Position numbers and translations under genes: made by a program
In this document: piece after piece, positions 21,495 to 29,615 of the stretch
Layout: every line of letters starts with the position of its first letter
Numbering within the stretch: the stretch's first letter is position 1
NCBI RefSeq assembly: GCF_000934755.1
Contig: NZ_KN882175.1
Location: 455,736-519,735, forward strand
Source: Desulfonatronovibrio magnus
Lineage (GTDB): Bacteria > Desulfobacterota > Desulfovibrionia > Desulfovibrionales > Desulfonatronovibrionaceae
DNA: 64,000 bases
Direction: 5' to 3'
The notes under the pieces: generated by a model
The model's input: the letters and a program-made list of their open reading frames with translations, nothing else
Database searches by the model: none
What the model was told of the DNA's origin: nothing

Positions 21495-21565
21495 GAAAAG
21501 TACGGTTATCGCTCCAGCTTAACGATCCTTGTCTAAATTGGGTTGTGAGTACAGCCCGCGTTAGA
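21493..21565 (+). promoter_or_regulatory. 73-bp conserved element C2 with two hairpins
   Basis: It is identical to C1 (2332-2404) at 63 of 73 positions without gaps; the first 20 bases match exactly. The second hairpin is kept by G-U pairs (ggttgt with acagcc), while the first stem is weaker (ccagctta with taaattgg). It ends 9 bases before the mrpF ATG and so would be part of the mrp leader. No known riboswitch consensus is recognised. Confidence 0.5.
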
Positions 21566-21574
21566 GGTTTGCAA

Positions 21575-21850
21575 ATGAATACATTTTACCTGTGCATGGC
21601 ATTGTTTCTCGTCATTAATATTCTGGCCGGCTTGTGGAGAGTTGTGGCGGGTCCCCGGCCTGAAGACAGAATGGTAGCAGCCCAGCTTTTCGGCAGCACG
21701 GGCGTTGCTACCCTGCTTTTACTGTCTCAGGCCCTTGACTCTCCATATATTAAAAACGCAGCTCTGGTTTTTGCCCTGCTTACGGTCATGGCTGTGCTGG
21801 CCTTTGTACGCAATACATCCCATGGATTGAAGCAGGATATTGAAAAATGA
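21575..21850 (+). CDS. mrpF: Mrp-type Na+/H+ antiporter subunit F
   Basis: This 91-residue protein has three hydrophobic helices and the MrpF/MnhF core VAGPRPEDRMVAAQLFGSTG. ATG 21575 is chosen because agagg lies 7 bases upstream; a GTG at 21545 inside element C2 gives an artificial extension. It is the first gene of the mrp operon and overlaps mrpG by 4 bases (ATGA). Confidence 0.9.
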   Translation: MNTFYLCMALFLVINILAGLWRVVAGPRPEDRMVAAQLFGSTGVATLLLLSQALDSPYIKNAALVFALLTVMAVLAFVRNTSHGLKQDIEK

Positions 21851-22161
21851 ATATTTTTGAAATTTTGTCCATTATCTTCTGCCTTTGTGGCGGCATCTTC
21901 TTCCTGGGAGGGACTGTTGGCCTGATACGTTTTCCAGACACCTACAGCCGGCTGCATGCTCTGACCAAGGCCGATAATCTGGGGCTTGGATTTACTGTTC
22001 TTGGCTTGACCCTGGTCAGCAGCTCTGTTCCGGAGATTCTCAAGCTTGTACTTATCTGGACCCTGGCTCTGATAAGCAGCTCCAGTGCCTGTTACTTCAT
22101 CGGCAACCACATGTTTCAAATTAAAAAAACAGTCAGCAGACAAAATGAATCTAATTTTTGA
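21847..22161 (+). CDS. mrpG: Mrp-type Na+/H+ antiporter subunit G
   Basis: This 104-residue membrane protein has three helices and the MrpG signature GTVGLIRFPDTYSRLHALTKADNLG. It starts in a 4-base overlap with mrpF and overlaps the next gene by 17 bases. It belongs to the hydrophobic Mrp complex that exchanges Na+ for H+. Confidence 0.92.
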   Translation: MNIFEILSIIFCLCGGIFFLGGTVGLIRFPDTYSRLHALTKADNLGLGFTVLGLTLVSSSVPEILKLVLIWTLALISSSSACYFIGNHMFQIKKTVSRQNESNF

Positions 22162-23068
22162 TTTATTCATCGCCATTTGTCTCATAGCCGTATCAGTTAG
22201 AATTATCCTGGTTAGAGAACACTTTCAGACCATCGTCCTTTTCATCACTTTTGGACTGTTTCTCGCTCTGGCCTGGACCAGACTGCAATCTCCGGACATA
22301 GCCATAGCAGAGGCAGCAGTAGGCGCCGGTCTGACCGGGGTACTGCTCATGGACAGCCTGGGGGCAATTAAAACATCCAGAAAACCTGCCCGCAACCGGA
22401 TTCCTCTGAAACTGGTTTTTCTAACCATTGCACTAATTATTGCCCTGAGTTATTCTGCTGTGCATATTCCCTATGACTTTTCAGGACTCAGCCAGGCAGC
22501 CCATGATGCCATGCCCGCATCAGGACTTGAATATCCTGTGACTGCAGTCCTTCTGGATTTTAGAGGCTATGACACGTGGTTAGAACTTGGAGTACTTCTT
22601 GCTGCGGTAACCGGAGTGCTGGCCTTGCGCCGCAGAACCAACCTTACCGGATCTTTGCTCCCAGCACCTGCCGAGCCTGTGGGCCGTTGGATAATCAAAA
22701 TTCTTCTGCCCTTCATGGTCTTGATTGGCGGCTACCTGCTCTGGCTTGGTGCTTATGCCCCTGGCGGAGCTTTTCAGGCCGGGGTTGTTCTCGCTGGAGC
22801 CGGAGTCATGCTCTGGCAGGCAGGACACCCTTCCATTGCTGTACTGCCCGGTATATGGTGGAGAATATTATTATGCTCAGGATTTAGCGCTTTCCTTATT
22901 CTCGCTGTATTGTCTTTATTTTATGCAGATCAAATGCTTACCCATCCGCAATCCAAAGCCTGGATCCTGGGAATTGAATATGCGGCCACCATCTCCATTG
23001 CAATTTGCCTTGTCAGCCTGATTCAGGCATCTCCGGGCTCAAAACCGGACTCAACGATCCCCAATTAA
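22145..23068 (+). CDS. mrpB: Mrp antiporter MbhD/DUF4040-MrpB fusion subunit
   Basis: From ATG 22145 this is a 307-residue membrane protein. The first 80 residues are MbhD/DUF4040-like (LAWTRLQSPDIAIAEAAVGAGLTGVLL), a segment that in classical Mrp systems sits at the C-terminus of MrpA. The rest is MrpB-like (YPVTAVLLDFRGYDTWLELGVLLAA; GAYAPGGAFQAG). The ORF also reads back to 22085, deep inside mrpG, but that part is out-of-family. The fused arrangement recalls Mbh-type and split-MrpA loci. Confidence 0.88.
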   Translation: MNLIFDLFIAICLIAVSVRIILVREHFQTIVLFITFGLFLALAWTRLQSPDIAIAEAAVGAGLTGVLLMDSLGAIKTSRKPARNRIPLKLVFLTIALIIALSYSAVHIPYDFSGLSQAAHDAMPASGLEYPVTAVLLDFRGYDTWLELGVLLAAVTGVLALRRRTNLTGSLLPAPAEPVGRWIIKILLPFMVLIGGYLLWLGAYAPGGAFQAGVVLAGAGVMLWQAGHPSIAVLPGIWWRILLCSGFSAFLILAVLSLFYADQMLTHPQSKAWILGIEYAATISIAICLVSLIQASPGSKPDSTIPN

Positions 23069-23089: not shown

Positions 23090-23398
23090 ATGACATCATT
23101 AGTAATTTATCCAATAACAGCAGTCATCCTTTTTTCTGTCGGACTTCTCGGCCTTGTAAGCCATCCAAATCTGCTGAGAAAGATTGTCTGCCTTAATATA
23201 ATGGCCGGTGGAGCGTTTCTTTTTCTCATCAGCCTGGCTTACCGCGCCGGTGATCCTGCAATGGATCCTGTACCCCAGGCCATGGTCCTGACAGGTATTG
23301 TTGTCGCTGTCAGTGCTACGGCCTTTGCCCTTTGCCTGGCCCGGCTCATCAAGGAAAAGACCGGACACTGCAGTTTCGATGATAACAGCGAACAATAA
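23090..23398 (+). CDS. mrpC: Mrp-type Na+/H+ antiporter subunit C
   Basis: This 102-residue NuoK-like protein has three helices, with GLLGLVSHPNLLRKIVCLNIMAGG near the start and PVPQAMVLTGIVVAVSATAFALCLA in the third helix, both MrpC hallmarks. It is 21 bases after the MbhD-B gene and 8 before the first D subunit. Confidence 0.92.
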   Translation: MTSLVIYPITAVILFSVGLLGLVSHPNLLRKIVCLNIMAGGAFLFLISLAYRAGDPAMDPVPQAMVLTGIVVAVSATAFALCLARLIKEKTGHCSFDDNSEQ

Positions 23399-23406
23399 CT
23401 TATCTG

Positions 23407-24879
23407 ATGCCTGAACTGCTTATTCTAATTCCATTTTGTGCGGCTGTTGTGTGCTTTTTTATTTCCGGCAAGATTCAGGCGTGGACAGGTCTGACTGCTG
23501 CACTGCTCATTGTGACTGCTGCACTGAAGCTGAGCAGAGATATCTATACCAGCGGTATTCAACGCCTGAACCTTGGAGGATGGGATGCTCCTTTAAGCAT
23601 TGGACTGAAGATTGACGGGCTTTCCATAATCTTCATCCTGCTTACTGCTGCAGTGGGCCTGATGGTCAGCCTTTACAGTGTCTGGTATTTTTCAAAAGAG
23701 GATGAAGCTAAGCAGGCAACATACTTCTGGCCTTTATGGTTTCTGCTCTGGGGCGCTCTGAACTCCCTGTATTTTGTTGCTGACATCTTCAATGCCTATG
23801 TAGTCCTGGAACTGATCAGCATCAGCTCCGCTGCTCTAAGTGCCCTGACCGGAACAACAGCATCCCTCAAGGCAGCCCTGCGTTATTTCCTGGTGGCCAT
23901 GGCCGGGTCCATGTCTTTTCTGCTTGGAGTGGGCTTTGTTTATGCTCATACCGGCGCGCTGGACATGCAGACCATAGCTCAGGCCGCAGATCATGGCCCT
24001 CTCATGTTTTCAGCTCTGGGACTTATGACCGTGGGTCTGATAATGAAAGCAGCTCTTTTTCCATTTCATTTCTGGCTTCCTCCAGCCCATGGCCAGGCTC
24101 CTGCTCCTGTAAGCGCCATTTTGTCCGCCCTTGTTACCAAAGGTTCTTTTTTTCTGATTTTAAGGCTCTGGTTCTCTACATTTCCCATGGACGCCTCAAT
24201 GCACTACCCGGCGCTCTTCATGGGAACAGCAGGAGTTATGGCTGTACTGTGGGGTTCATACCAGGCTGTAATTCAGACCAGGATAAAACATATCATCGCT
24301 TATTCCAGCATTGGACAGCTCGGCTACCTGTTCATAATCTTCCCTCTGATGTTCATTAATTCCGATCCCTATTGGCAGCTGGAAGCCTGGACCGCGTGTA
24401 TTTTTCAGGTAGTATCCCATGGACTGGCCAAAGCAGCACTGTTTCTTGCAGCCGGAAATCTCATTCTGTTTTGCGGTACCGACCACATAAAGTCCATGCG
24501 TAATATTGCCGGCTCACTGCCTATGACTACCTTCACCCTGGGCCTGGCCGGAGTAAGTCTCATGGGACTGCCCCCCAGCGGAGGTTTTGTGGCCAAGTGG
24601 ATGCTTTTGCAGTCCATCATCATTAGTGGTCAATGGTGGCTGATCATTGCCCCGGTTATGGGTGGTCTGCTTACAGCTGCTTACATATTTAAAATCCTGT
24701 CCAGCACATTTGTTTCCGACCGCAATGTGCTAAAAAAAAACAATATTTCATTTTTTATGGAAAAATCAGCTCTGATACTGGCTCTTCTTGCCATGCTTAT
24801 GGGCTTCAGAGCTGAAGAAGTAATCTTTCTGCTCCAGGAAAGGATGAGCTTCGAGCTTTCAGGGGGATATCTGCCATGA
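23407..24879 (+). CDS. mrpD: Mrp antiporter subunit D-like protein (first of three)
   Basis: This 490-residue NuoM/NuoN/MrpD-family protein has about 14 helices. The conserved Glu of the proton path is present (YVVLELISISS), as are the lysines in GLIMKAALFPFHFWLP and ALVTKGSFF. PAPVSAILSALVTK and AYSSIGQLGYL are typical of the family. It overlaps the next gene by 4 bases. It should be an ion-translocating subunit of the complex. Confidence 0.92.
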   Translation: MPELLILIPFCAAVVCFFISGKIQAWTGLTAALLIVTAALKLSRDIYTSGIQRLNLGGWDAPLSIGLKIDGLSIIFILLTAAVGLMVSLYSVWYFSKEDEAKQATYFWPLWFLLWGALNSLYFVADIFNAYVVLELISISSAALSALTGTTASLKAALRYFLVAMAGSMSFLLGVGFVYAHTGALDMQTIAQAADHGPLMFSALGLMTVGLIMKAALFPFHFWLPPAHGQAPAPVSAILSALVTKGSFFLILRLWFSTFPMDASMHYPALFMGTAGVMAVLWGSYQAVIQTRIKHIIAYSSIGQLGYLFIIFPLMFINSDPYWQLEAWTACIFQVVSHGLAKAALFLAAGNLILFCGTDHIKSMRNIAGSLPMTTFTLGLAGVSLMGLPPSGGFVAKWMLLQSIIISGQWWLIIAPVMGGLLTAAYIFKILSSTFVSDRNVLKKNNISFFMEKSALILALLAMLMGFRAEEVIFLLQERMSFELSGGYLP

Positions 24880-26375
24880 ATCTGGACTTCTGGCTGCCCG
24901 TTCTTGTCTTGTCCAGTTCCCTTTTCACCGGAATAGTCATCTTCTTCCTCAAGGAAGAAAGCACCAGACTTAGAACAGCGCTTAACCTGCTCGGGGCGTC
25001 CATAAAAGTAGTTGCGGTTCATTATATGGCTTACAGATTGCTGGTCCTGGACATTATCCATGAAATCAGCTTCAGCATGGGCCTTGGTTTTGACTTTATT
25101 ATCAGGGTTGACTTTCTATCCCTTATGTTTGTCAGTCTGTCCAGCAACCTGTGGCTGGTTACCACTCTCTATGCTGTGGGTTATCTTGAGGAATCGCCCA
25201 ACAGAAGCAGATTCTTCGGATTTTTCAGCTTGTGCGTGACAGCAAGCACCGGCATCGCCATGGCCGGAAACCTGATTACTTTCTTCATGTTTTACGAATT
25301 TCTGACCCTGACCACCTACCCCCTTGTAGTGCACAGAGAAACGAGACAAGCCCTGGATGCTGGACGAACATATCTCTGGTACACCATTCTTGGCGGAGCC
25401 ATCCTTTTTGTAGGCATAGTCTCGCTGCAGGTTCTGGCCGGTCCTGTGGACTTTGTGGACTCGGGATTCATGCAGTCCCTGGGGCATGAACATCACCTTA
25501 CCTTGAAAATAATTTTTGCATTGCTCATTATCGGTCTCGGAGTAAAGGCAGCCTTAGTCCCCCTGCATGGCTGGCTTCCTGTAGCCATGATTGCGCCTGC
25601 CCCGGTATCAGCCCTGCTCCACGCCGTAGCAGTGGTCAAAGCTGGAGCGTTTGGAATCGTCAGGGTGGTATTTGATGTATTTGAAAGAGATTTTGCAGGC
25701 AGTCTCGGCCTGCTGGGACCTCTTACCGGCATTGCCGCCATTACCATTATCTATGGATCCATAAGAGCCCTGACCCAGACAGATCTAAAAAAACGACTGG
25801 CCTATTCAACAGTCAGCCAGGTATCCTACATTACTATTGGAGCTGCCCTGATTGCGCCTTTTTCCACAGTGGGAGCCATTGTCCACCTCGTGCATCAGGG
25901 AGTGATGAAAATCACCATGTTTTTTTGTGCGGGAAATATTGCCGAAACCCTGGGGCTGCATAATATTCGCGAACTTAAAGGTGTTGCACGGCGCATGCCT
26001 CTTACAGCCATCATGTTTACCCTGGCGGCCTTTGGCATGATAGGCGTTCCCCCCATGGCCGGATTCATCAGCAAATGGTATCTGGGATTGGGCGGGTTGG
26101 ACAGCAATAATGCCTGGGTGCTGGGTGTTCTGGTGCTAAGCAGTATCCTCAATGCTGCTTATTTTTTACCCGTTATCCACACCATGTGGTTTGAAAAGCC
26201 GGACCGGGAATGGAAAACCATCCGCTCCAGCAGACTCGAAGCCCCCTGGATGCTGCTTACTCCACCTGCTATAACTGCCCTGGCAGCTTTACTTGCCGGT
26301 TTGTTTGCCAATTGGGAATGGAGTCCCCTGGGGGTTGCCAGACAAATTGCTGTGGGCATGGGGGTTTACCCATGA
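24876..26375 (+). CDS. mrpD: Mrp antiporter subunit D-like protein (second of three)
   Basis: This 499-residue MrpD/NuoL-M-family protein has all key charged residues: Glu in MFYEFLTLTTYPLVVH, Lys in GVKAALVPLHGWLP and AVVKAGAF. IAYSTVSQVSYI-type motifs and the amphipathic GVPPMAGFISKW are present. It starts in an ATGA overlap with the previous D gene and ends in one with the next. It may stand in for the ND5-like part of MrpA, which is not otherwise encoded here. Confidence 0.92.
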   Translation: MNLDFWLPVLVLSSSLFTGIVIFFLKEESTRLRTALNLLGASIKVVAVHYMAYRLLVLDIIHEISFSMGLGFDFIIRVDFLSLMFVSLSSNLWLVTTLYAVGYLEESPNRSRFFGFFSLCVTASTGIAMAGNLITFFMFYEFLTLTTYPLVVHRETRQALDAGRTYLWYTILGGAILFVGIVSLQVLAGPVDFVDSGFMQSLGHEHHLTLKIIFALLIIGLGVKAALVPLHGWLPVAMIAPAPVSALLHAVAVVKAGAFGIVRVVFDVFERDFAGSLGLLGPLTGIAAITIIYGSIRALTQTDLKKRLAYSTVSQVSYITIGAALIAPFSTVGAIVHLVHQGVMKITMFFCAGNIAETLGLHNIRELKGVARRMPLTAIMFTLAAFGMIGVPPMAGFISKWYLGLGGLDSNNAWVLGVLVLSSILNAAYFLPVIHTMWFEKPDREWKTIRSSRLEAPWMLLTPPAITALAALLAGLFANWEWSPLGVARQIAVGMGVYP

Positions 26376-28096
26376 TCTGGATCCTTGCTGTTTTTTTTCC
26401 TCTTGTGGCTGCATTTTTCTGCCTTTTGCCCGGTAAAGGCTTTCTCTCGGGCAGACTGCTCATGGTCTGTGCGCCCTTGCCTGCCCTTTTCATGGCCCTG
26501 AGCGGACAACATGACCAGGGGATTGAACTGAATAATTTTCTTTTGCAGTCTCGCCTTGGATTCACCCCCTGGGGCAGGGAACTCCTTACAGCCATATCCA
26601 TTGTCTGGGCTGGAAGTTCCATTTATGCCGCCTTTGGCAGATGGAACCTGACCAGATCCTTTGCAGTAATGTTTCTTTTGAGCATGTGCGGCAATCTGGG
26701 GCTGATTGTGTCCCTTGATGCCATCAGCTTTTATCTGTTTTTTGCTCTTATGACTTTCTCATCCTACCCGTTGATCATCCATTCAAGAGAGGAGCATACC
26801 ATAAGGGCGGGCAGAATCTATCTGATCATGGCTGTACTTGGTGAAGGACTGCTTCTCGCAGGTTTGATGACCTCTGTTGCTCTGACTGGCAGTCATTACT
26901 TCAGCGACATACACCTGACTATGGCCACTGTCCCCGAGACTCACCCTGTCTTTGCAATGCTCTTTGCTGGATTCGGCATCAAGGCAGGTCTTGTCTTTTT
27001 GCATTTCTGGCTGCCCCTGGCCCATCCTGCTGCTCCTGTGCCGGCCAGTGCAGTGCTGAGCGGGGCCATGATCAAGGCCGGACTTGCCGGATGGATGTTC
27101 TTTTTTCCGCTGGGAATGGCTGACTTTGGTCTCTGGGCAATCATTCTGTCTGTCATGGGTATTACCGGCACATTCTGGGGGGTTCTGGCCGGAATGGCAG
27201 AAACAAGGCCAAAAGTTATTCTGGCCTTTTCCAGTATAAGTCAGATGGGTTTGATGACCTTCTGTTTTGGCCAGGGCCTTTTTATGGAATCTTTGTGGGT
27301 AATGGCCGGACCAGCCATGGTTTATCTGATTATGAATCATGCCCTGTGCAAGGCAACACTTTTCCTGCAGACAGGAATCTCAATGCGCATATCATCCGGA
27401 TATGCCGGACTTATAAAAGTTCTAAGTATTATTCCGGCTCTGAGCCTGGCCGGAGCACCATTTACAGCCGGCATTCAGGCCAAGTATCTGCTCAAGGACG
27501 TTGCAGGACAAGGTCCATTTGGATCCATCAGTTCATGGATCCTTTCCCTGTCATCTGTTTTGACAACTATCCTTCTTACCCATTTTTTCAGCTGCCTTGA
27601 AAAAACCAGCATCTCTGGAAAATCTGATGCAGCAAAATACTCATCATGGTTAGTAATGATACTAACTGTTCTTGTGCTGCCCTTTACTATTCATCATTTT
27701 CAACCCGATCTCCGGCCGTATCTGCTTAACTCTTCAACTGTTATATCAGGGCTATGGCCTGTCATATCAGGCATTGCCATCTACATATTCTTCAGCAGGT
27801 TTATCAGCCGGAAAGCAGCACGCACAGTGAATGCGCTCCCAGTATTAGCCGAACTTCTGGAAAAAGCCTGGTATCATCTCAATTCAAGGATCAGGCAAAG
27901 CAGGGTTTTGGGATCAGAACAGGTCAGCATGAATTTTTCACAATATACAGATATGATTATCAGCAGCAGACTGGCCGTAAAAATTTCCAGAGGACTTGAA
28001 AAAAAATTTTATTCCTGGACAGTGTTTGGTCTGTTTTTCATGGTATCCATCCTTTTTTTTATTTTTCTTGCCTGGATCGGTCAATTTAATTCATAA
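26372..28096 (+). CDS. Mrp antiporter subunit D-like protein (third of three), conserved Glu replaced by Ala
   Basis: From ATG 26372 (ATGA overlap with the previous gene) this is a 574-residue MrpD/NuoN-family membrane protein; the longer frame from 26210 runs inside the neighbour and is not real. Aligned with its paralogue (MFYEFLTLTTYPL), this protein reads LFFALMTFSSYPL, so the proton-path Glu is Ala125 (codon 26744-26746). The lysines in GIKAGLVFLHFWLP and AMIKAGLAGW remain. The C-terminal 150 residues are longer and end in a further helix. It may be a structural or modified channel subunit. Confidence 0.88.
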   Translation: MIWILAVFFPLVAAFFCLLPGKGFLSGRLLMVCAPLPALFMALSGQHDQGIELNNFLLQSRLGFTPWGRELLTAISIVWAGSSIYAAFGRWNLTRSFAVMFLLSMCGNLGLIVSLDAISFYLFFALMTFSSYPLIIHSREEHTIRAGRIYLIMAVLGEGLLLAGLMTSVALTGSHYFSDIHLTMATVPETHPVFAMLFAGFGIKAGLVFLHFWLPLAHPAAPVPASAVLSGAMIKAGLAGWMFFFPLGMADFGLWAIILSVMGITGTFWGVLAGMAETRPKVILAFSSISQMGLMTFCFGQGLFMESLWVMAGPAMVYLIMNHALCKATLFLQTGISMRISSGYAGLIKVLSIIPALSLAGAPFTAGIQAKYLLKDVAGQGPFGSISSWILSLSSVLTTILLTHFFSCLEKTSISGKSDAAKYSSWLVMILTVLVLPFTIHHFQPDLRPYLLNSSTVISGLWPVISGIAIYIFFSRFISRKAARTVNALPVLAELLEKAWYHLNSRIRQSRVLGSEQVSMNFSQYTDMIISSRLAVKISRGLEKKFYSWTVFGLFFMVSILFFIFLAWIGQFNS

Positions 28097-28213: not shown

Positions 28214-28915
28214 ATGGAACTTAAAGATGCCATAAAAGCCGCATTACAAGAGTTGATTATCCCTGAAATTAAAACACTCAAGGCAGAATCACTGCAACTA
28301 AAAGTTTCCCTCGAACATACCAATAAAAGGCTCGATGATATTAATATCCATCAGGCCGATCAAAGCAGACGGATAGATGACACAAACAAATGCATCGAAT
28401 CGATGCGTACTGAATTCAGCCATAAATTTGACGGAATTAATAAAAGATTCGAGGACGTAAACAAAAGATTTGATGACGTAAACAAAAGGTTTGATGACGT
28501 AAACAAAAGATTCGATGACGTAAACAAAAGATTCGATGAGGTTTACAAGCGATTTGATGATCAACGTAGTGAATTCAGCCAAAAGCTTGATGACCTAAGA
28601 GCCGAACTCAGCCAAAAAATTGATGACTTAAGAGCCGAACTTAGCCAAAAAATTGATGAACAGAGAGCCGAATTTAGTTTAAAATTTGAAGAAGTTTATA
28701 AAAAATTCGAAGCTGTTAACAGTCGTTTCGACAATATGAACAACAGATTTGAAAAAATGACATCCGAATTCCACAACAGATTTGATGCGCTGAACAAACG
28801 CATTGATGACCTGCAGGCGGCAATGGTCCGTCGGGAGGAGCACAGTGACATTATTGAAAGAATACATCGTCTGGAGCTTGACATGTCCGAGATTTACCGA
28901 AAAGTGGCAGCCTGA
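28214..28915 (+). CDS. Repetitive coiled-coil protein
   Basis: This 233-residue hydrophilic protein is almost wholly coiled coil. From about residue 78 it has five exact heptads of the type KRFDDVN, encoded by near-identical 21-bp units, followed by three 11-residue (hendecad) units such as ELSQKIDDLRA encoded by 33-bp units. No membrane segment or enzyme motif is visible. It resembles DUF1640-like or long-coiled phage/chemotaxis accessory proteins only in composition. It sits between the third mrpD and mrpE on the same strand, so a link with the antiporter is possible but unproven. Confidence 0.75.
   Translation: MELKDAIKAALQELIIPEIKTLKAESLQLKVSLEHTNKRLDDINIHQADQSRRIDDTNKCIESMRTEFSHKFDGINKRFEDVNKRFDDVNKRFDDVNKRFDDVNKRFDEVYKRFDDQRSEFSQKLDDLRAELSQKIDDLRAELSQKIDEQRAEFSLKFEEVYKKFEAVNSRFDNMNNRFEKMTSEFHNRFDALNKRIDDLQAAMVRREEHSDIIERIHRLELDMSEIYRKVAA
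28445..28549 (+). repeat. Five 21-bp tandem repeats (coding)
   Basis: Five consecutive 21-base units start at 28445, 28466, 28487, 28508 and 28529; each encodes one heptad of the coiled coil. The middle three are nearly identical, which suggests recent slippage expansion or contraction. Confidence 0.85.
28571..28669 (+). repeat. Three 33-bp tandem repeats (coding)
   Basis: Three 33-base units (28571, 28604, 28637) each encode 11 residues of the type E-L-S-Q-K-I-D-D-L-R-A. The switch from 7-residue to 11-residue period occurs within one gene. Confidence 0.85.
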
Positions 28916-28992: not shown

Positions 28993-29062
28993 TCAATATG
29001 TCTTTGGAACCAGACCAGGTATCTATCCAAATTTATGAACTTTATTTCTTGCAACCAGGAAC
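28993..29062 (+). repeat. 70-bp direct repeat, left copy (before mrpE)
   Basis: It matches 29654-29723 at 55 of 70 positions with no gap; both copies start with tcaatatgtctttg and end with tcaaccaggaac or gcaaccaggaac. It overlaps the apparent 5' end of the mrpE reading frame. Confidence 0.7.
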
Positions 29063-29615
29063 TTTCAAAATATTATACACCATGTCCATAAATGAAAAAA
29101 GCAATTCTGAAAATGAAGACTTTAGACTGTTTACCGGTCTTTCCAGGCATCCGGTTAAACTACTCCCTGGTCTAACAGTCAGAATTGTCATCTTTTCCAT
29201 TATATGGTGGGGGCTTTCTGCCGGGGTAATGGACCAGATCATTCTCATGCTTTTCCTGATCCTGGCTTCAGCCCTTATAAGCATCCTTCTAATTCCACCT
29301 CAGAAGGTAAACATAACCGGCATGATACTTTTTATCCCTTTTTTTATTCGTCTATCTGTGATGGGCGGAATTGATGTAGCCTTCAGGGCCTTCAGACCAT
29401 CCATGCCTCTGAAAACAGGATTTGTAAAATATCCATTAAGCCTCTCTCATCAAACAGCCAGGGTGCTGTTTGTCTGGGTGGTGAGCCTTTTGCCTGGTAC
29501 AGCTTCGGTCTGTCTCAAAGATAATGTCATGAACATTCATGTTCTGGACCGCAATATTAACCATACTTCAAACTTAGAGAAACTTGAGCATAAAATTGCA
29601 CTGATTTTTGGTTAA
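28998..29615 (+). CDS. mrpE: Mrp-type Na+/H+ antiporter subunit E
   Basis: This MrpE-family protein is 205 residues from ATG 28998 or 177 from ATG 29082. The family part begins near KLLPGLTVRIVIFSIIWWGLS and includes RPSMPLKTGFVKYPL and SLLPGTASVCLKDNVMNIHVLD, typical of MrpE. Two or three hydrophobic helices are visible. The first 22 codons from 28998 lie in a 70-bp repeat also found after the gene, which favours ATG 29082; however only 28998 has an agg-type ribosome site. It is separated from the other mrp genes by the coiled-coil gene. Confidence 0.85.
   Translation: MSLEPDQVSIQIYELYFLQPGTFKILYTMSINEKSNSENEDFRLFTGLSRHPVKLLPGLTVRIVIFSIIWWGLSAGVMDQIILMLFLILASALISILLIPPQKVNITGMILFIPFFIRLSVMGGIDVAFRAFRPSMPLKTGFVKYPLSLSHQTARVLFVWVVSLLPGTASVCLKDNVMNIHVLDRNINHTSNLEKLEHKIALIFG

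Follow-up and report, generated by a model that had tools for sequence, protein, structure and literature searches.

Introduction

Across antiporter-like subunits, a Glu residue of transmembrane helix 5 (TM5) is described as conserved, or even strictly so (PMC7613608, PMC9474812). The present analysis concerns the third antiporter-like subunit (D3, 574 amino acids; 26372–28096, plus strand) of an mrp-type operon in a 64 kb stretch of Desulfonatronovibrio magnus contig NZ_KN882175.1 (hereinafter, the window), in which this position is occupied by Ala, whereas a Glu is found in the next helix, TM6.

In NuoL, ion pairs are formed by Lys229/Asp178 and Arg175/Glu144 (PMC13144422), and the proton affinities of Asp178 and Glu144 were inversely correlated in simulations (PMC13358369). 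The ion pairs of Nqo12 are Lys216/Asp166 and Arg163/Glu132; neutralization of the TM5 Glu in isolated Nqo12 or Nqo13 increased proton conduction in liposomes, the increase being strong for E132Q in the isolated Nqo12 module (PMC11496545). In DabB2, the pair Lys235/Asp185 is retained and Ile151 stands in place of the Glu, and the substitution I151E halved the growth yield (PMC13144422). In the Mrp structure, GluTMH5 of MrpA is located 7 Å from LysTMH12 of MrpD and was proposed to be part of a coupling point (PMC7419157). As for the necessity of the TM5 Glu, which the initial annotation of D3 had called essential, the literature is divided: it is described as essential for antiport in a review of Mrp systems (PMC5703873), whereas growth of a B. 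subtilis mrpA deletion strain with MrpA E113Q was about that of the wild type, and NuoL E144Q made only a slight difference (PMC4938563). The role of this residue as a gate, a pKa tuner or a coupling point between neighbouring subunits is a matter of debate.

Residues at the TM5 and TM6 Positions

Homologues were taken from 45 loci of named genome contigs and from relatives of the window's genome, and were labelled D1, D2 or D3 according to the best BLAST match among the three antiporter-like subunits of the window; the D1 and D2 sets include some other paralogues. A first alignment contained 180 antiporter-like subunits, including 62 D3-labelled rows, in which the TM5 column held Ala (57), Ser (3), a gap (1) and Glu (1). 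The row with Glu (L078) groups with HyfB in the tree, has Val at the TM6 position and was rejected as a member of D3; it was counted in the 180-row alignment and removed from the D3 set of 73 rows, to which the fragment L071, devoid of TM5 and TM6, and 11 D3 sequences from a search of the phylum were added. Two copies at contig ends stand outside the counts, one with Ala125 and Glu158 (L055) and the other with Ala125 and ending before TM6 (L056), while the D3 of four loci (L006, L012, L058 and L099) is a copy of that in the window. One locus (L027, 6391–9617) carries two tandem D3 genes, both with Ala125 and Glu158 and each with an open reading frame (ORF) extending upstream beyond the expected start; both rows were counted, and the locus was excluded from the AlphaFold2 input alignment.

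The replacement of Glu by Ala at residue 125 (codon GCT, 26744–26746, plus strand), reported in the initial annotation, is real and is evident from the comparison of the TM5 motifs of D3 and D2 (FFALMTFSSYPL vs. FYEFLTLTTYPL). In the 73 D3 rows, residue 125 was Ala in 64, Ser in 4 and Thr in 4, that is, one of these three residues in 72 of 73, with a gap in the fragment and no acidic residue. The non-acidic state is thus common to all 72 readable rows, 71 of which come from other loci, and Ala125 is a trait of the whole clade. The same counts refute an error of sequencing or a mutation confined to the strain; nothing was found in favour of either, and this reading was rejected, its probability being negligible.

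Residue 158 (codon GAA, 26843–26845, plus strand), located within TM6 (helix 141–172 of the AlphaFold2 model), was Glu in 72 of the 73 rows, the gap belonging to the same fragment. The acid, which had been regarded as simply lost, therefore appears from the alignments to have been relocated from TM5 to TM6, because every readable D3 row has a TM6 Glu in the column of NuoL Asp178. The pairing of Glu158 with the NuoL Asp was obtained by two methods, MAFFT and hhalign, and in the profile–profile alignment against five NuoL-type sequences, VLGEG stood opposite SVGDM. According to the annotation, the claim would fall if relatives had a Glu at another position of TM5; the Glu of D3 lies in the next helix, and within the TM5 span 117–135 an acid was found in only 5 of the 72 rows, always as Asp119 near the helix start, with residue 158 still Glu in all five. 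Within TM6 (residues 146–168), no acid besides residue 158 was found in 72 of 72 rows.

The Lys residues said to remain in D3 are indeed present, namely, Lys204 in TM7 (26981–26983), Lys235 in TM8 (27074–27076) and Lys371 in TM12 (27482–27484; plus strand, coordinates derived from the residue numbers). Lys204, His323, Lys327 and Lys371 were each found in 73 of 73 rows, and residue 235 was mostly Lys (61), with Asn in 10 rows, Gln in 1 and Leu in 1. At residue 155, which corresponds to the position of NuoL Arg175, V, I, L, M or F was found in all 72 readable rows. D3 thus has the PF00361 domain together with the TM7 and TM12 lysines of an antiporter-like subunit, but not the TM5 Glu facing the TM7 Lys, having Ala125 and a Glu in TM6 instead.

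In the other subunits, the TM5 column held Glu in 39/39 D1-labelled and 63/63 D2-labelled rows (102/102). The column of residue 158 held Ser (37) or Thr (2) in the D1-labelled rows and Gly (50), Ala (7), Ser (3), Thr (2) or Asp (1) in the D2-labelled rows; the single Asp belongs to a NuoL-type row (L057), and E. coli NuoL likewise holds Asp in this column. Among the 180 aligned subunits, the acid was confined to TM5 in 115, stood in TM6 with none in TM5 in 63 (including one row with a TM5 gap) and occurred in both helices in 2, so that no subunit was devoid of an acid at both positions. The presence of an acid in TM5 or TM6 in 180/180 rows, together with the invariance of the TM7 and TM12 lysines in D3, agrees with a neutral positional swap, in which the TM6 Glu does the job of the TM5 Glu and the usual gating and coupling are unchanged. 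Such a swap is nevertheless unlikely, although it deserves to be reckoned with: the TM5 acid of Mrp is close to the TM12 Lys of the neighbouring subunit (PMC7419157), which a TM6 acid may not reach, proton conduction by Nqo12 increased when only the TM5 acid was neutralized (PMC11496545), and a neutral swap need not remain fixed in 72/72 readable rows.

Predicted Fold and Comparison with Described Subunits

The AlphaFold2 model of D3, built from 42 D3 sequences, had a mean predicted local distance difference test score (pLDDT) of 87.6 and a predicted template modelling score (pTM) of 0.89; it is weak at residues 515–530 and at the end, the last 50 residues being of low confidence. The best VIA-align matches were E. 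coli NuoL chains (Z = 38.3–40.5 over 479–507 residues), including 7p61_L (Z = 40.2, root-mean-square deviation 2.9, 483 residues), in which residues 1–512 of the model corresponded to residues 2–562 of the chain. The match to MrpA 7d3u_A covered 496 residues (Z = 39.4) and that to MrpD 7qru_D covered 434 residues (Z = 39.0), the latter stopping at model residue 445, beyond which the model has further helices that the MrpD core does not. MrpA–MrpD entries were ranked first by Foldseek. The predicted fold of D3 thus extends in a NuoL-like manner beyond the 14-helix core and tracks NuoL and MrpA further than MrpD; therefore, the label "MrpD-like" of the initial annotation is imprecise. The length of the NuoL-like match suggests that D3 sits at the tip of the complex.

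With NuoL, ND5 and Nqo12, D3 shares the fold over model residues 1–512, the TM6 acid (Glu158 at the position of Asp178) and the TM7 and TM12 lysines, whereas the TM5 Glu and Arg175 in TM6 are additional features of NuoL, replaced in D3 by Ala and a hydrophobic residue, and D3 is encoded in an mrp-type operon. DabB2 resembles D3 in that the TM5 Glu is absent (Ile151) and the TM6 acid (Asp185) and TM7 Lys (Lys235) are kept (PMC13144422); however, DabB2 partners DabA2, whereas the operon of D3 is of the mrp type, and the TM6 acid of D3 is Glu instead of Asp. This comparison was made with the published residues of DabB2, the tree containing no DabB sequence. No match to DabA (PF10070), the partner that would accompany a DabB, was found in the window's genome (97.5% complete, 134 contigs). 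The DAB2 structures described in PMC13144422 were not among the fold matches listed for D3, which says nothing of their distance from it.

The N-terminal part of MrpA is similar to D3 in fold, as is evident from the match to 7d3u_A, but in MrpA of A. flavithermus TM5 retains the Glu and the TM6 position is Gly, and in the window the C-terminal part of MrpA is located in a separate gene. D3 shares the superfamily and core fold with MrpD, whereas the MrpD-type subunits D1 and D2 retain the TM5 Glu and lie outside the D3 clade. The top NCBIfam match of D3 was hydrogenase 4 subunit B, although with 148 of 667 bits, far below the cut-off; HycC and HyfB of E. coli keep the TM5 Glu and are separate in the tree, HycC having lost the TM7 Lys instead. 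An origin of D3 from HyfB/HycC was rejected because the tree separates them.

Phylogeny, Distribution and Divergence of D3

In a tree constructed by a quick method with midpoint rooting, in which every second D1- and D2-labelled row was sampled and many branches were long, D3 formed one clade of 61 rows (Shimodaira–Hasegawa-like approximate likelihood ratio test, SH-aLRT, 100; stem of 1.2 changes per column). This clade was separate from D1, D2, NuoL/M/N and HyfB/HycC, so that D3 grouped neither with the MrpD-type rows nor with NuoL.

D3 was found in eight named phyla. The 42 named loci (L013–L054) belong to Pseudomonadota (14), Thermodesulfobacteriota (10), Gemmatimonadota (9), Myxococcota (3), Kiritimatiellota (2), Binatota (1), Nitrospirota (1) and Campylobacterota (1), one locus being unplaced; a truncated copy from Phycisphaerales also has Ala125 and Glu158. 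Within the phylum searched, the distribution was sparse, with D3 in at least 12 of 395 genomes at E ≤ 1e-60, the window's genome included, this count being a lower bound because at most three candidates per genome were scored.

Several carriers of D3 have names that belong to soda-lake or alkaliphilic organisms, namely, Thioalkalivibrio, Nitrincola alkalilacustris, Nitrincola lacisaponensis and Aliidiomarina haloalkalitolerans. Any association with alkaline habitats is no more than an impression, since Myxococcus and Rhodoferax carry D3 too. Haloalkaliphile names among the carriers could speak for a specialization of D3 for Na+ instead of H+, and one published model assigns the Na+ path to MrpA/NuoL (reviewed in PMC5703873). 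This specialization is very improbable: in two papers on Mrp structures, Na+ is assigned to the C-terminal part of MrpA, MrpC, MrpF and MrpD and not to the NuoL-like part of MrpA, and no sign of a Na+ site turned up in D3, although no search was dedicated to it.

The mean identity to the window over 32 loci was 43% for D1, 57% for D2 and 34% for D3, the latter being the fastest-diverging of the three, and the identity of D2 exceeded that of D3 in 51 of the 51 loci with both; the residues fixed in D3 are therefore more telling. Rapid divergence and the disappearance of the TM5 acid are in line with a D3 that has ceased to transport ions and serves as a structural cap at the distal end of the complex, as the annotation had suggested with its structural-only subunit. 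That role fits poorly with the retention of Glu158 (72/72 readable rows) and of Lys204, His323, Lys327 and Lys371 (73/73) across the eight phyla, and we regard it as improbable.

Organization of the Operon

The gene order, established from the ORFs and Pfam matches in the window, is F G B C D1 D2 D3 E, all recognized genes being on the plus strand; the full set from MrpB to MrpG thus occurs together, as in an Mrp-type operon. MrpF (21545–21850, PF04066) is followed by MrpG (21847–22161, PF03334) and by an ORF (22085–23068) that combines MbhD, MbhE and MnhB domains (PF13244, PF20501 and PF04039, the PF20501 match of 24.5 bits being below its cut-off of 27) and represents the C-terminal part of MrpA plus MrpB. 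The actual start of this ORF is probably later than annotated, because it overlaps MrpG. Its MbhD part carries AIAEAAVG, in which, by eye, the Glu seems to be about one helix turn off the MrpA Glu. MrpC (23090–23398, PF00420) and the MrpD-type subunits D1 (23407–24879) and D2 (24876–26375), both with PF00361 and the TM5 Glu in the alignment, precede D3, the start of which overlaps the end of the upstream gene by four bases. PF00361 (E = 7.2e-34) was the sole Pfam match of D3 at E ≤ 0.001. From MrpF to D3, neighbouring genes overlap or are at most 21 bases apart. Between D3 and MrpE (28998–29615, PF01899), an ORF of 233 amino acids (28214–28915) encodes a coiled coil with RFDDVNK repeats, for which the Pfam and NCBIfam matches were coiled-coil look-alikes only.

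In canonical Mrp systems (groups 1 and 2), the NuoL-like part is fused to the MbhD/MbhE-like part, whereas in the window D3 and the MbhD–MbhE–MnhB fusion are separate genes; irregular (group 3) mrp clusters have been described (PMC5703873). D3 occupies the slot of "A" in the mrpFGBCDDAE order of Microbacterium TS-1 (PMC5703873). Cation/H+ antiport is the putative activity of the operon product.

This arrangement recurs in related loci: D2 was the last recognized gene ahead of D3 in 54 of 60, and in the other six D3 was the first recognized gene of the stretch (four loci) or was preceded by a D1-labelled ORF (two loci). In 30 of the 60 loci, the stretch covered contained E, F, G, B, C, D1, D2 and D3; the remaining 30 stretches start no more than about 5 kb ahead of D3.

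Other Antiporter-like Subunits in the Same Genome

Two NuoL-like subunits encoded elsewhere in the window's genome, on contigs C116 (57757–59919; 7758–9920 of locus L115) and C118 (9986–12121 of locus L116), have Lys in place of the TM5 Glu (FIGWKLVGLCSY) and Asp in TM6. The TM5 Lys was recognized by motif in 10 of 11 loci, two from the window's genome and eight from its relatives, L114 having no motif match. As judged by eye, the subunit on C116 belongs to a complex I-like operon (1269–13067 of L115) with an extra NuoM/HyfF-like subunit ahead of NuoL, which gives four antiporter-like subunits and recalls the "2M" complex I of Nitrospira (PMC9040806). On C118, a second Mrp-like operon (4861–13626 of L116) comprises, also by eye, an MrpD-like and a NuoL-like subunit and two more antiporter-like subunits akin to the extra subunit on C116.

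Discussion

With a probability of about 0.62, D3 is the distal, NuoL/MrpA-N-shaped subunit of a three-pump Mrp-type antiporter, in which Glu158 replaces the TM5 Glu as the partner of Lys204 and protons are conducted. This interpretation builds on the position swap and its invariance in the rows examined, on the clade, on the operon order and on the predicted fold. By analogy with NuoL, Glu158 of TM6 would pair with Lys204 of TM7, the TM5 position being Ala. With the TM5 acid absent and the TM6 acid and TM7 Lys present, D3 would naturally resemble DabB2 and Nqo12 E132Q, and we infer that it conducts protons with the pair resting "open," as proposed for DabB2 and mimicked by the Nqo12 mutant. 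The coupling point between D2 and D3 would be weaker or different, because the TM12 Lys of the neighbouring subunit lies beside the TM5 Glu of MrpA in the structure of Mrp. D3 might then supply an easily opened additional H+ route, making more H+ available to drive one Na+ out, and, as an idea only, a higher H+:Na+ ratio could be helpful to cells that have to take up H+ at high pH, where the membrane potential would be the driving force. Gating or stoichiometry may be changed by D3.

Several points weigh against this interpretation. The Glu158–Lys204 contact is carried over from NuoL, and, judging by the alignment, D3 has no counterpart of NuoL Arg175, so that its pair need not behave like that of NuoL. 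The Gly at the TM6 position of A. flavithermus MrpA in the alignments means that the NuoL arrangement is not common to all Mrp subunits. In Mrp, the TM5 Glu could be less important than supposed, since MrpA E113Q of B. subtilis had little effect (PMC4938563). The TM8 Lys is not fixed in D3, and relaxed constraint on other parts of the subunit could account for some of its fast divergence. The Z scores of the model against NuoL, MrpA and MrpD are equal or almost equal, and only the aligned lengths differ.

A further reading, possible but rather doubtful, is that D3 represents a new class of subunit, in which the TM5 acid has moved to TM6 and a natural "open ion pair" provides the three-pump Mrp-type antiporter with a single rapid, loosely coupled route for protons and with more H+ per Na+. 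Among the literature matches listed, at most 20 per search and from a collection with few subscription journals, there was no report of a move of the acid from TM5 to TM6, of this clade or of an mrp operon with three mrpD genes.

With the acid one helix over and the lysines kept, the D3 clade is a natural counterpart of the E132Q and I151E experiments and bears on whether the pair must involve TM5 in order to couple neighbouring subunits. The operon as a whole would be an Mrp-type antiporter with three pump subunits, amenable to measurement of the H+:Na+ stoichiometry.

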